A stretch of DNA of 64,000 nucleotides. It comes from an uncultured bacterium. GTDB lineage: Bacteria; Pseudomonadota; Gammaproteobacteria; Burkholderiales; Burkholderiaceae_E. Below are positions 46,580 through 50,089 of this stretch, in pieces (positions within the stretch are counted from its first letter, which is position 1; each line of letters begins with the position of its first letter). The stretch lies in contig CAIPNM010000291.1 of assembly GCA_903866395.1 (NCBI GenBank), positions 1 to 64,000 of the forward strand, given 5' to 3'. A program made the position numbers and the translations under genes. The notes beneath the pieces were generated by a model. The model was not told where the DNA came from, did not search any database, and saw only the letters and a list, made by a program, of their open reading frames with translations.

Positions 46580-46777
46580 GAAAGCTCCTTGCGCTTGAGT
46601 GGCCCAGTCTGCCCGTGGCGAGAGGGGAACTCAAGCCCCCTCGCGCGCACCGGCCGCACCATTGGGGGTTTCATCCCACACACCACGCGAACACGCCGTA
46701 TGATCGGACACATGACACGCTGCCATCCACCAGCCAACAGACCGGATAGAACCTGCCGGGGCGCTGTTGACCTGTGC
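46580..46777. promoter_or_regulatory. Upstream region of the Zrg-like operon
   Basis: Divergent gap of 198 bp. A TATGAT -10 candidate is at 46699-46704, about 75 bp before the chosen start, with no clear -35. A GAGGGG/CCCCTC hairpin spans 46622-46642. I looked for a Zur-type palindrome, as expected for zinc control, and did not see a convincing one by eye. Confidence 0.3.
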
Positions 46778-47335
46778 ATGCAGGCGGCGGCGCGCCTGCG
46801 CCACGGCCTGCTGATCGCATTACTCGCCCTCGCGCCGGCTACGCCGGCATTGAGCGCGCCGGGGGGGCATGGACACGTGCACGGGCAGGCGCGGCTCGAC
46901 CTCACGCTTGAGGGCGCTCGCCTTACCATCGAGGCCGAGCTGCCGATGGAAACCCTCACTGGCTTTGAGCGAGCGCCACGCACCGACGATGAGCGGACTC
47001 GTCTGCAGCGCGCGCTCGATGCGCTCCTCGCAACCGGCGTTTTTCGCCCGACACCCGACGCGGGCTGCAAACCCGCCACGCAGGCGCTTCGCTGGTCGGG
47101 CTCCGCCGAACCGGCCACGGCGACGAGCGGACTCCCAGGCGATGACACGCATCTCGATCTTCTGGTGACACATGCGTTCGACTGCGATCGCCCGGCTCGT
47201 TTGGGCATGCTCGAAATCGGCCTTTTCGATATTCTCAGCCGGCTGCGCCGCATCGAAGCGCGCTTCGCAGGGCCCGGCGGCACCCAGGCGCGTACCTTGC
47301 AGCGCAACCGCAAGGTATTCGAGCTCGCCCGCTGA
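46778..47335 (+). CDS. DUF2796 / ZrgA-like secreted protein
   Basis: 185-residue periplasmic protein with a clear signal peptide (MQAAARLRHGLLIALLALAP, cleaved near ALSA-PGG). Right after it comes a histidine-containing HGHVHGQARLDLTLEG, typical of DUF2796, followed by an anti-parallel-strand-like domain with two pairs of cysteines (Cys near GCKPAT and FDCDRPA). ZrgA of Vibrio cholerae belongs to this family and acts in zinc uptake. I chose 46778 for the signal peptide; ATGs at 46700 and 46712 are possible but would push the signal inside. First gene of a four-gene operon. Confidence 0.8.
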   Translation: MQAAARLRHGLLIALLALAPATPALSAPGGHGHVHGQARLDLTLEGARLTIEAELPMETLTGFERAPRTDDERTRLQRALDALLATGVFRPTPDAGCKPATQALRWSGSAEPATATSGLPGDDTHLDLLVTHAFDCDRPARLGMLEIGLFDILSRLRRIEARFAGPGGTQARTLQRNRKVFELAR

Positions 47336-47378
47336 GTGCGCCGCGCCCAGCCTGCAATCCGCACGCAAAGCGCTCGAT

Positions 47379-48173
47379 ATGTCGACCGACTCCGATCACC
47401 CGTCAGCTCAATCCGCTGAGCATGCGGTCGTCGAAGTAAACGATCTCGTCTTCCGGTACCGGCGACAGACCCGCGCGGCGCTGGCAGTGAACCATCTGAG
47501 GGTGGGCGCAGGCGAGCGCCTTTTTGTTTACGGGCCAAGCGGCGGTGGCAAGAGCACGCTCATGTCATTGCTTGCTGGCGTACTGATTGCACAGCAAGGA
47601 ACGGTGCTGCTCCTTGGCACCGACTGGCGCTCGCTCGGCAGCTCAGCGCGTGACCGCCGGCGTGGCGATCATGTCGGCTACCTGTTTCAGCAGTTCAATC
47701 TGCTCAGCTGGCTGCCAGTGCTCGATAACGTGTGCCTGCCCTGCCGATTTTCAGCGCGGCGCGCGGCACGCGCGGCAGCTCGCTCAGGGTCGGTCGAGCG
47801 CGACGCGAGCAGCTGGCTCGCAGCGCTCGATCTCGCCCCGGATCTCTGGCGCCAACCCGCGGGCACGCTGTCGGTGGGCGAACAGCAACGCGTCGCGGCG
47901 GCACGAGCTCTGATCGGTGCGCCCGAGCTCGTGCTCGCCGATGAACCCACCTCGGCACTTGATGCAGACCGGCGAGACGAATTCATGGCACGGCTGCTGG
48001 CGGCCTGCCAGGAAGCAGGCAGCGCCCTGGTATTCGTCAGCCACGACCGCTCGCTCGAGCCGCTTTTCGATCGCAGCCTGGCACTGGGCGCGCGTACCGA
48101 CCCCAATAACATTCGCCCATTGTCTGCGAGCCAATCGGCCGAGGCCCCCTCGCCCGCGGGAACGTCGTCATGA
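47379..48173 (+). CDS. ABC transporter ATP-binding protein (LolD/MacB-like, ZrgB position)
   Basis: 264-residue ATPase: Walker A GPSGGGKST at residues 52-60, Q-loop YLFQQFNLLSWLP, signature LSVGEQQRV, Walker B LVLADEP and H-loop FVSHD. It belongs to the group that works with FtsX-type permeases rather than classical import permeases. The start at 47379 gives MSTDSDH; the open frame upstream overlaps the DUF2796 gene. It overlaps the permease gene by 4 bp (ATGA). Confidence 0.9.
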   Translation: MSTDSDHPSAQSAEHAVVEVNDLVFRYRRQTRAALAVNHLRVGAGERLFVYGPSGGGKSTLMSLLAGVLIAQQGTVLLLGTDWRSLGSSARDRRRGDHVGYLFQQFNLLSWLPVLDNVCLPCRFSARRAARAAARSGSVERDASSWLAALDLAPDLWRQPAGTLSVGEQQRVAAARALIGAPELVLADEPTSALDADRRDEFMARLLAACQEAGSALVFVSHDRSLEPLFDRSLALGARTDPNNIRPLSASQSAEAPSPAGTSS

Positions 48174-49423
48174 AGGCCATGATCGTGCTCGCTGCAAGGA
48201 GCGCCTGGGCCCGTCGCTTCACGCTCGCCCTCACCATCATCGCCGTTTCACTCTCTACGGTGCTGCTCCTTGCCACCGAACGGCTTCGCCACGATATCCG
48301 CAAGAGTTTTTCGCAGGCGCTTTCAGGCACTGACCTGATCGTGGGCGCACGCGGCAGCCCCACTCAGATCCTGCTTCACACCGTGTTTCATCTTGGCCCG
48401 CCCACGCAGGCGGTGACCCTGAAACGAATCGAGGCGATCGGCGAGCTGCCCCAGGTCGCCTGGGTGGTGCCGATTGCGCTCGGCGATACCTTTCGCGGGT
48501 TTCCGGTGATCGCGACCGATGAACGCTTTTTGCGCCATGTACGGGTGGGCGATCGCCAGCCGCTCATGCTGGCACAGGGCCGCGAGCACGGTCGCCACGC
48601 CGAGGCGGTGATTGGCGCGCAGGTCGCCCGGCAACTGGGCCTCGGTGCAGGTGCCCGGATCACACTCAGTCACGGCAGCGGTCCGCTCGCCGAGGGCTCG
48701 CATGACGATCAACCCTTCACCATCACCGGTGTCCTCGCGCCATCGGGCTCGCCAGTCGATCGCGCGGTGCTGATCAGCCTCGAGTCAATGCATGCGCTTC
48801 ACGCGGGGTGGGTGGCCGGCGTTCGACCGGCCCGCGGGTCGCAGCCCTCGACGGACCCGGGTGCGCGCCCGGTCACGGTGTCGGCAGCCCTGGTGGGGCT
48901 GCGCGCGCGAAGCACGGTCTTCTCTGTGCAGCGCCGGCTGCAGGCCGAGCCCGAAGAACCGCTCACCGCAGTATTGCCAGGGGTCACGCTCGACGAGTTG
49001 TGGAAGGCGCTGGGTGTGGGTGAGAACGCGCTTCGCTTAATGGGCGCGCTGGTGGCGCTCGCGAGCCTGGCCGGCCTGGTATCAGTGATTCTGGCCGGCC
49101 TTGATGCCAGGCGGCGCGAACTCGCCATCCTGCGCTCTGTGGGCGCAAGCCCGCGTACGCTCGTCATCCTGCTCATTACCGAAGGCACACTCGCTTGTCT
49201 GAGCGGCATTGCGCTGGGGGTGGCGGCGGGTGCGCTACTCACCCTGTTCGCGGCATCACCGTTACAGGCGCAGTTCGGCATCGCGCTCGGCACGGATTTT
49301 CTGCGTGCTGGCGAGTGGCTGTTGCTTGCAGCGGTGCTCGCCACCGGTATCCTCGCCAGTCTGTTACCCGCTTTGCGCGCGTGGCGGTTGTCGCTTGCCG
49401 ACGGACTGTCCCCGCGATCCTGA
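48170..49423 (+). CDS. FtsX-family ABC transporter permease (ZrgC position)
   Basis: 417-residue permease of the MacB/FtsX type: first helix about residues 16-36, a large periplasmic domain (about 40-280), then three C-terminal helices with RRRELAILRSVGASPRTLVILL, the coupling segment for the ATPase. Members of this family usually move lipoproteins or perform mechanotransmission rather than import ions, so how it would serve metal uptake is unclear. Translationally coupled to the ATPase. Confidence 0.9.
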   Translation: MKAMIVLAARSAWARRFTLALTIIAVSLSTVLLLATERLRHDIRKSFSQALSGTDLIVGARGSPTQILLHTVFHLGPPTQAVTLKRIEAIGELPQVAWVVPIALGDTFRGFPVIATDERFLRHVRVGDRQPLMLAQGREHGRHAEAVIGAQVARQLGLGAGARITLSHGSGPLAEGSHDDQPFTITGVLAPSGSPVDRAVLISLESMHALHAGWVAGVRPARGSQPSTDPGARPVTVSAALVGLRARSTVFSVQRRLQAEPEEPLTAVLPGVTLDELWKALGVGENALRLMGALVALASLAGLVSVILAGLDARRRELAILRSVGASPRTLVILLITEGTLACLSGIALGVAAGALLTLFAASPLQAQFGIALGTDFLRAGEWLLLAAVLATGILASLLPALRAWRLSLADGLSPRS

Positions 49424-49444
49424 TTGTTCAACCTGCGCCCGACC

Positions 49445-50089
49445 ATGACCCTTCACCGACTGCTGCGTGTTTTATGCCTGCTGATGGCGGCCAGCTGCCT
49501 GGTGCTCGCCCCAGACGAGGGCCTCGCACAATCGGGCGGCGCGCCGGCCTCGCAGCCGCCGGCAGCCCGCGGCGGGGCCACCTCCCGGCCCGCTGAGCCG
49601 ATCAAGCTTCCGGGTCGCCTGATCGGGGGGGGCGTACGTGAAATCGGCTGGGACGACCTCATGCCGGAAGATTGGGACCCCCTCAAGCTTCTTGAAGGTC
49701 GGGGGCTTGAAGCCATCAGCGATGGCGATCCGCGTAGCGAGGCACTCATGCGAGAAATCCGCGAGCAATGGGATCAGGCGCCCACGCGCAGCGAGCTCGA
49801 GGGCCTGCGGATCCGGATTCCCGGCTATGTGGTGCCGCTCGACATGCTGGGCGGCGATATTCGAGAGTTTCTGCTGGTGCCCTACATGGGCGCATGCATC
49901 CACACCCCGCCCCCGCCCGCCAATCAGATTATTCAGGTGGTGTCGGCGCGGCGTCAGGCGCTACAGACCATGGACGCGGTATGGGTCGTTGGCACGCTCA
50001 AGGTTGGGCGAAGCGACACCCGCATGGGCGTGAGCGGCTACGTGCTCGATGCCACGCGCATCGAGCCGTATCGCGGCCCATCACGCTAA
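49445..50089 (+). CDS. DUF3299 secreted protein (ZrgD position)
   Basis: 214-residue exported protein: hydrophobic signal segment (about residues 4-25, with AASC that could act as a weak lipobox), disordered linker, then the DUF3299 domain containing IRIPGYVVPLDML and GACIHTPPPPANQ, in which the Cys/His pair is a possible metal site. I prefer ATG 49445 to TTG 49424 for the signal. Last gene of the operon; it ends 19 bp before the convergent dehydratase. Confidence 0.82.
   Translation: MTLHRLLRVLCLLMAASCLVLAPDEGLAQSGGAPASQPPAARGGATSRPAEPIKLPGRLIGGGVREIGWDDLMPEDWDPLKLLEGRGLEAISDGDPRSEALMREIREQWDQAPTRSELEGLRIRIPGYVVPLDMLGGDIREFLLVPYMGACIHTPPPPANQIIQVVSARRQALQTMDAVWVVGTLKVGRSDTRMGVSGYVLDATRIEPYRGPSR

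Follow-up and report, generated by a model that had tools for sequence, protein, structure and literature searches.

Two groups have reached opposing views of one operon, which is a zinc importer for one and a metallophore exporter for the other. In Vibrio, the Zrg system is described as a zinc importer, with zrgA required for growth at low zinc (PMC9820375, PMC9817125); in Pseudomonas aeruginosa, PA4063-PA4066 is described as a MacB-type exporter of the pyochelin-cobalt complex, and loss of PA4065 increases the demand for zinc (PMC11481552). We analysed a related operon in a 64,000-nucleotide stretch of DNA (hereafter, the window; contig CAIPNM010000291.1) from an uncultured bacterium of the order Burkholderiales. 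Positions 46778-50089 are filled by four same-strand open reading frames (ORF calls and translations), whose order is read as zrgA-zrgC-zrgB-zrgE. The most informative feature of the system is a triad of invariant histidines in the permease. The genes are:

46778..47335, + strand: zrgA, predicted secreted zinc-binding protein of the ZrgA family (PF10986, 109.7 bits against a gathering cut-off of 27.4; aligned to 7ahw and 8ezw; 37-row alignment)
47379..48173, + strand: zrgC, ATP-binding cassette (ABC) ATPase of the FtsE/LolD type (PF00005, 95 bits)
48170..49423, + strand: zrgB, FtsX/MacB-type permease (FtsX PF02687, 51.4 bits; MacB_PCD PF12704, 50.9 bits), whose start overlaps the ATPase gene by 4 bases
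49445..50089, + strand: zrgE, secreted DUF3299 protein with an oligonucleotide/oligosaccharide-binding (OB) fold and the motif GACIHxPPPPxNQ (PF11736, 139.7 bits, over cut-off; model compared with 4hsp)

All Pfam domains of the four proteins score above cut-off. A preliminary description of this DNA had proposed a four-gene operon with ABC parts of the LolD/FtsX type, not of the importer type; the domain matches and the FtsE/LolD-like ATPase bear this out. Its likening of the operon to zrgABCD holds for family membership but not for the gene order, and for PF10986, called DUF2796 there, Pfam now uses the name ZrgA. The description did not mention the permease histidines. By its gene content, the operon belongs to the already known Zrg/PA4063-PA4066 family. 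PA4063-PA4066 matches it family for family and in gene order (window ZrgA to 7ahw, 3e-10; window DUF3299 protein to 4hsp, 1e-25). It differs in having a Zur-bound promoter at PA4063 (PMC8531726), whereas the window operon has no Zur box, and PA4063 contains two His-rich stretches, whereas window ZrgA has none beyond HGHVHG. The window shares zrgA, zrgC, zrgB, zrgE and the ligands of zinc site 1 with zrgABCDE of V. cholerae and V. parahaemolyticus; unlike these, it lacks zrgD, the His-rich loop and the Zur box, and its ZrgA falls below the NF047873 cut-off. The V. parahaemolyticus order is zrgD-A-C-B-E, and V. fischeri and P. profundum likewise have no zrgD (PMC9817125); operons made up of the four genes A-C-B-E were thus known before. 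The grouping is not due to chance, because the same four genes occur together in three close relatives (L031, L032 and L033; permease identity 79-95%) and, across the order and the phylum, in the majority of zrg loci.

Invariant histidines of the permease

The invariant periplasmic histidines were first seen in permease alignment A2. Three histidines, H168, H178 and H211, together with D106 and D197, are invariant in 100/100 complete permeases, which were picked by profile similarity, a procedure that favours shared residues. The codons of the triad are:

48671..48673, + strand: H168, first invariant permease histidine (100/100 complete permeases)
48701..48703, + strand: H178, second invariant histidine (100/100)
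48800..48802, + strand: H211, third invariant histidine (100/100)

These 100 permeases comprise a zrg set of 60, which takes in the window, its close relatives and L034-L036, and 40 permeases from loci without ZrgA. Among the zrg permeases of the order and phylum (n = 63), the triad was present in all 60 that reach those columns. To extend the collection, 200 genomes of the order were searched with the A2 profile (E <= 1e-20). Of these, 66 gave a match, the scores leaving a break from about 410 down to 362 bits; 38 further loci were fetched, and L074 and L037 were added. Truncated permeases (L140, L147 and L151) were dropped, L132, L141 and L143 yielded no permease, and the set excludes the matches of G131 and G104 (partial). 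Within it are L126, with a ZrgA nearest to PA4063 (3e-59), and L160, with a ZrgA nearest to the V. cholerae protein (1e-36).

The HG-H-H motif was found in 100 of 103 permeases; the remaining three are incomplete, either at a contig edge or at the end of the stretch that was fetched. None of the four other PF12704 (MacB-domain) proteins encoded here carries it. Variation is seen across the permeases in columns such as D180, but never in the three histidines. The zrg permease has the FtsX C-terminal domain and the MacB-like periplasmic domain of type VII ABC systems, and with LolCDE, MacB, FtsEX and YbbAP the operon shares the ATPase family, these domains and fold matches; the HG-H-H triad and the constant DUF3299 partner set it apart. 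The fold matches of the low-confidence permease model were LolC, LolE, MacB, YtrF and the heme exporter HrtB, and profile alignments to PDB entries cover mainly the C-terminal domain. In the literature that we searched on ZrgB, PA4063/PA4065, type VII ABC zinc uptake, DUF3299 and DUF2796, we found no statement on the permease histidines, and the word 'histidine' is absent from PMC11481552 and PMC13083405.

Invariance alone might also be expected if the triad were structural, or part of a regulatory metal switch, in a permease that transports something else. G105, G137, G149 and R314, which have no obvious metal role, are equally invariant, and the geometry of the triad cannot be derived from the model (mean predicted local distance difference test score, pLDDT, 63.7; residues 167-179 and 211-232 under 50). 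We consider this explanation very unlikely, as three invariant histidines and the exchange of a His-rich loop with ZrgA, described below, would be hard to explain without a metal.

Systems without ZrgA and their zinc neighbours

The 40 loci without ZrgA, meaning that none was found within the locus (G061 carries a ZrgA elsewhere), consist of 14 class 1b loci with a high permease score, 18 class 2 loci defined by permease score (L181-L197 and L074, the latter first picked for its ZnuA), seven distant loci and one of Bacteroidota. The permease tree separates the 26 class 2, distant and Bacteroidota sequences from zrg and class 1b (support 0.997). The DUF3299 motif is Cys-x-His in zrg and class 1b and Cys-x-x-Cys in the class 2 and distant systems, with Cys-x-x-His in L187 and L189. 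A DUF3299-type gene is present in 18/18 class 2 loci; the proteins of four class 2 or distant loci (L074, L182, L190 and L199) all score above the Pfam cut-off, and that of the Bacteroidota locus (L037) scores under it.

A zinc-starvation gene (CobW, ZIP, ZnuA, ZnuB or Zur) was found in 17 of the 18 fetched class 2 stretches versus 0/20 control windows (p 6e-10); the controls came from genomes of the order, class 2 genomes supplying 17 of them. These neighbours were CobW (14), ZnuA (7), ZIP (2), Zur (2) and ZnuB (1). Zinc genes also adjoin 13 of 19 zrg loci of the order (L056, with zrgA and no zrg permease, was left out). A COG0523/CobW gene lies 5' of zrgA behind two Zur-like boxes in L044, a ZIP gene lies 5' of zrgA behind palindromes such as AATGCAACAGTGTTGCATT in L038, L042, L048 and L050, and in L043 and L047 zrg has genes for ZnuA, an ABC-3 permease, MerC and cation efflux as its neighbours. 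The link of zrg to zinc is plain in these relatives.

At least three histidines between H211 and A239 were found in 0/60 zrg permeases versus 15/40 permeases from loci without ZrgA (p 1.6e-7), distributed as 3/14 in class 1b, 8/18 in class 2, 3/7 in the distant loci and 1/1 in Bacteroidota. The simplest reading of this exchange is that the permease receives metal that is collected either by ZrgA or by its own loop. Together, triad invariance, the zinc neighbours of class 2 and loop exchange favour metal handling by the permease itself and speak against the export of pyochelin as a general role. More broadly, Zrg may be one branch of a larger type VII ABC family in which the permease itself would bind and move zinc at a site of three histidines (and Asp) in its MacB-like domain, with a constant DUF3299 OB-fold partner (carrying Cys-x-His in one branch and Cys-x-x-Cys, in two cases Cys-x-x-His, in the other) and interchangeable collectors (ZrgA or a His-rich permease loop). 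We hold this view tentatively, the chances leaning slightly against it.

Several individual loci deserve mention. The ATPase, triad permease and DUF3299-type genes directly adjoin the ZnuA operon in L185:4198-6796 and L074:6039-11254, and in L074 a small secreted His-rich protein is encoded between the ZnuA operon and the triad-permease genes. In a Sphingobacterium locus (L037:5941-7937), where no ZrgA was found, an 11-His stretch follows H211 and a DUF3299-like gene lies 3' of the permease gene. We found no study of the branch beside CobW, ZIP and ZnuA genes in the literature searched; the Zur operon of C. metallidurans was considered as a named example of class 2 and rejected, no ABC genes being mentioned for it in the text consulted.

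Zinc regulation and genome context

The preliminary description had seen no convincing Zur box, and our motif scan agreed:

46580..46777, no strand assigned: divergent intergenic region, no Zur-type operator found (best score of the order-type 19-mer 10.5, p = 0.75 versus shuffles; whole-genome pattern scans)

Against the E. coli consensus the window reached 11 of 22 matches, no better than shuffles of other loci. By the 19-mer, the close relatives are likewise without a Zur-type box (p 0.50, 0.10 and 0.65 for L031, L032 and L033). The 19-mer reached p <= 0.0075 in 13 of the 25 zrg loci other than the window, or 13/22 without these three relatives, with uncorrected p-values, approximate gene starts and a motif partly shaped on the same loci; four of the 13 matches lie more than 200 bases from the assumed start.

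This genome has two FUR-family genes, one of which matches the Zur model best (116.6 bits, under the cut-off of 167) and is encoded with ZnuA, an ABC-3 permease and a 403-aa protein of no assigned family. The inverted repeat TGTTACATTATC-N12-GATAATGTAACG lies upstream of this znuA-znuB-zur operon and is the only such site in the genome; the order-type 19-mer also recovers the site of this operon. Whole-genome pattern scans revealed no Zur-type site on contig C291, the 19-mer scan being weak because it gave 2 sites versus 3 in the control. It seems that the operator through which Zur controls znuA-znuB-zur does not govern zrg in this lineage. Zur control is reported to be lacking in some Pseudomonas groups (PMC10393844).

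Proteins with PF10986 over cut-off occur in 31/200 genomes of the order and 66/398 of the phylum, and ZnuA (PF01297) occurs in 119/200 genomes of the order, namely 17 of the 31 with zrg and 102 of the 169 without. These frequencies are not associated (p 0.56) and mutual exclusion of zrg and ZnuA was rejected. They bear on the idea of a periplasmic relay, in which ATP-driven movement would release the ion from ZrgA and the permease to a further periplasmic carrier, for example ZnuA, or to the DUF3299 protein, and the ion would not cross the inner membrane through the permease. Of the readings, this one fits the superfamily best, being consistent with its mechanotransmission mode (PMC5985334, PMC12646458). 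ZnuA and ZnuB are encoded in this genome, and ZnuA adjoins 7 of 18 ZrgA-less loci. Of the 17 genomes that have ZnuA as well as zrgA, 6 have the two no more than about 3.5 kb apart (a hand count from coordinates). However, zrg is equally frequent without ZnuA, and the zrgA effect of V. cholerae is seen in a znuA deletion, so ZnuA is not the sole acceptor (PMC9820375). We regard the relay as rather unlikely.

The ZnuA operons themselves showed a peculiarity. In 17 of 19 loci (L068:3678-7186 on contig C54 of this genome and 18 among L069-L087), ZnuA operons headed by a protein of about 400 aa had no ABC ATPase match within the fetched stretch, and ZnuC may be encoded outside it, where no search was made; the exceptions, L072 and L074, have a type VII ATPase in that stretch. 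The 403-aa protein upstream of ZnuA (L068:5975-7186) has no Pfam or NCBIfam match and is kept with ZnuA across the order. The zrg ATPase as a general partner of ATPase-less ZnuA-ZnuB operons was rejected, since many such genomes, including G088, G043, G048 and G182, have no zrg-type permease match (E <= 1e-20).

Genome content also bears on export of a metallophore-metal complex by a MacB-type machine, as proposed for pyochelin-cobalt. The permease has a MacB/LolC fold, and a PA4065 mutant has pyochelin and cobalt phenotypes (PMC11481552). An organic ligand would nevertheless be a poorer fit than a metal ion to the invariant histidines and His-rich loops, and there is no MacA-like gene of the MacAB-TolC kind among the four genes, to which the search for an adaptor was confined. 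A single marker was used for metallophores, the thiazolinyl reductase TIGR01761 of pyochelin-type synthesis. It had no match in this genome; of 200 genomes of the order two had a match over cut-off, one of them (G178) belonging to the 31 zrg genomes. By this marker the pyochelin reading does not carry over to these bacteria, and we consider the exporter quite unlikely here; pyochelin may still be exported in P. aeruginosa itself.

Some gene calls are provisional. From 46778 on, differences between zrgA and its L031 counterpart by codon position (6, 4 and 20) indicate coding constraint; the start at 46778 is provisional, the ATG being absent at that position in L031 and L032. At 46699-46714, TATGAT is followed after 7 bases by an ATG, a promoter-like arrangement whose spacing is conserved in L031-L033. 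A leaderless start at 46712 was dropped, as the differences over 46712-46777 (6, 8 and 7) carry no coding signal. For zrgE, a TTG start at 49424 is possible (ORF 49424-50089) but the ATG at 49445 is likelier. Judging by eye, we take the flanking genes to encode an FMN-binding glutamate-synthase-like protein upstream and a dihydroxy-acid dehydratase-like protein downstream; the flanks are retained in L031 and L033 and are uninformative about zinc. Tandem DUF3299 matches lie 3' of the zrg permease in L050:5669-6742, L153:6883-7855, L154:1227-2064 and L159:1009-1928.

Protein partners and a proposed mechanism

The zinc ligands of ZrgA site 1 were defined as His, His, Glu and His in PMC9820375. 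Their counterparts in the window protein, the product of the single PF10986 gene in this genome, are H33, H35, E64 and H125, conserved together with the disulphide cysteines C97 and C136 (alignment to 7ahw and 8ezw; 37 rows, L011 left out of the counts); in L036 the fourth histidine aligns shifted. The HGHVHG and CIH motifs singled out in the preliminary description are present; HxH and CxH are likely metal ligands, and HxH forms half of crystallographic site 1. No residues corresponding to sites 2 and 3 were recognised in the window protein. The central loop of 27 residues contains no histidine in window ZrgA, and at least three in five other rows of the 37-row alignment. We did not take the His-rich loop as family-defining, because it is missing from most ABC-linked members of the order and is dispensable in V. 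cholerae (PMC9820375). The NCBIfam equivalog ZrgA_Zn_trans (NF047873) gave 51.9 bits, under its cut-off of 185, and the protein is therefore a member of the ZrgA family, not an equivalog by that model. The PF10986 proteins of L027-L030 have none of the ligands of site 1, and the short stretches examined around them contain no zrg genes.

The ATPase reads as intact (Walker A GPSGGGKST, signature LSVGEQQ, Walker B LVLADEP); its best NCBIfam models are FtsE, LolD and DevA, none reaching cut-off. The model of ZrgE (pLDDT 76.2) is an OB fold whose best match is PA4066 (4hsp; Z 17.2, root-mean-square deviation 2.9 over 139 residues). The fold search gave no function, the rows under Z 8.3 other than 4hsp being common OB matches; a CcmABCDE chain appeared among many OB folds (E 9.6e-4). 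CcmE is an OB-fold protein that works alongside an ABC transporter, as in zrg; with no sequence relation shown, the likeness is an analogy only.

We propose, giving it an even chance, that the zrgACBE operon serves zinc supply. ZrgA would bind periplasmic Zn(II) at its His-His-Glu-His site, whose ligands are assigned by alignment to solved structures, and would pass the ion to a periplasmic permease site formed by the triad, to which D106, D197 or both probably contribute; these residues are invariant and would bind the metal. Binding and hydrolysis of ATP may then shift the periplasmic conformation of the permease dimer and move the ion on, as in other type VII ABC systems. The DUF3299 protein, which is co-conserved with the permease, could act through its Cys-x-His pair as an acceptor or gate on the zinc path. 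The ATPase, the permease and the DUF3299 protein would form the core, with ZrgA an accessory that one large branch dispenses with. The ion would either cross the inner membrane through the permease or go to another carrier.

Several points weigh against this proposal. To our knowledge, no type VII ABC system carries a substrate across the inner membrane, and we know of no MacB-type ABC that imports. MacB itself does not carry substrate across the inner membrane (PMC5985334), and in the PA4065 mutant background cobalt is reported to accumulate, with no relevant zinc difference (PMC11481552). The window operon has no Zur box, and the permease model is too weak to tell whether the triad histidines meet in space. 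The p-values overstate independence, the sequences being related, and zinc neighbours are rare in the other sets, with 1/14 class 1b, 0/7 distant and 5/40 phylum zrg loci. Zinc context is thus strong evidence where class 2 and the zrg loci of the order are concerned, and elsewhere weak or silent.

The points worth following are the family-wide triad and the branch without ZrgA. The triad, its persistence in ZrgA-less systems and the loop swap offer a short list of residues with which to decide whether the permease handles metal, and the ZrgA-less branch beside CobW, ZIP and ZnuA genes provides a set of candidate zinc systems. If the wider reading of a family whose permeases themselves bind and move zinc is true, this would be the first type VII ABC system shown to deliver a metal ion, and it would do so by mechanotransmission instead of an importer fold.

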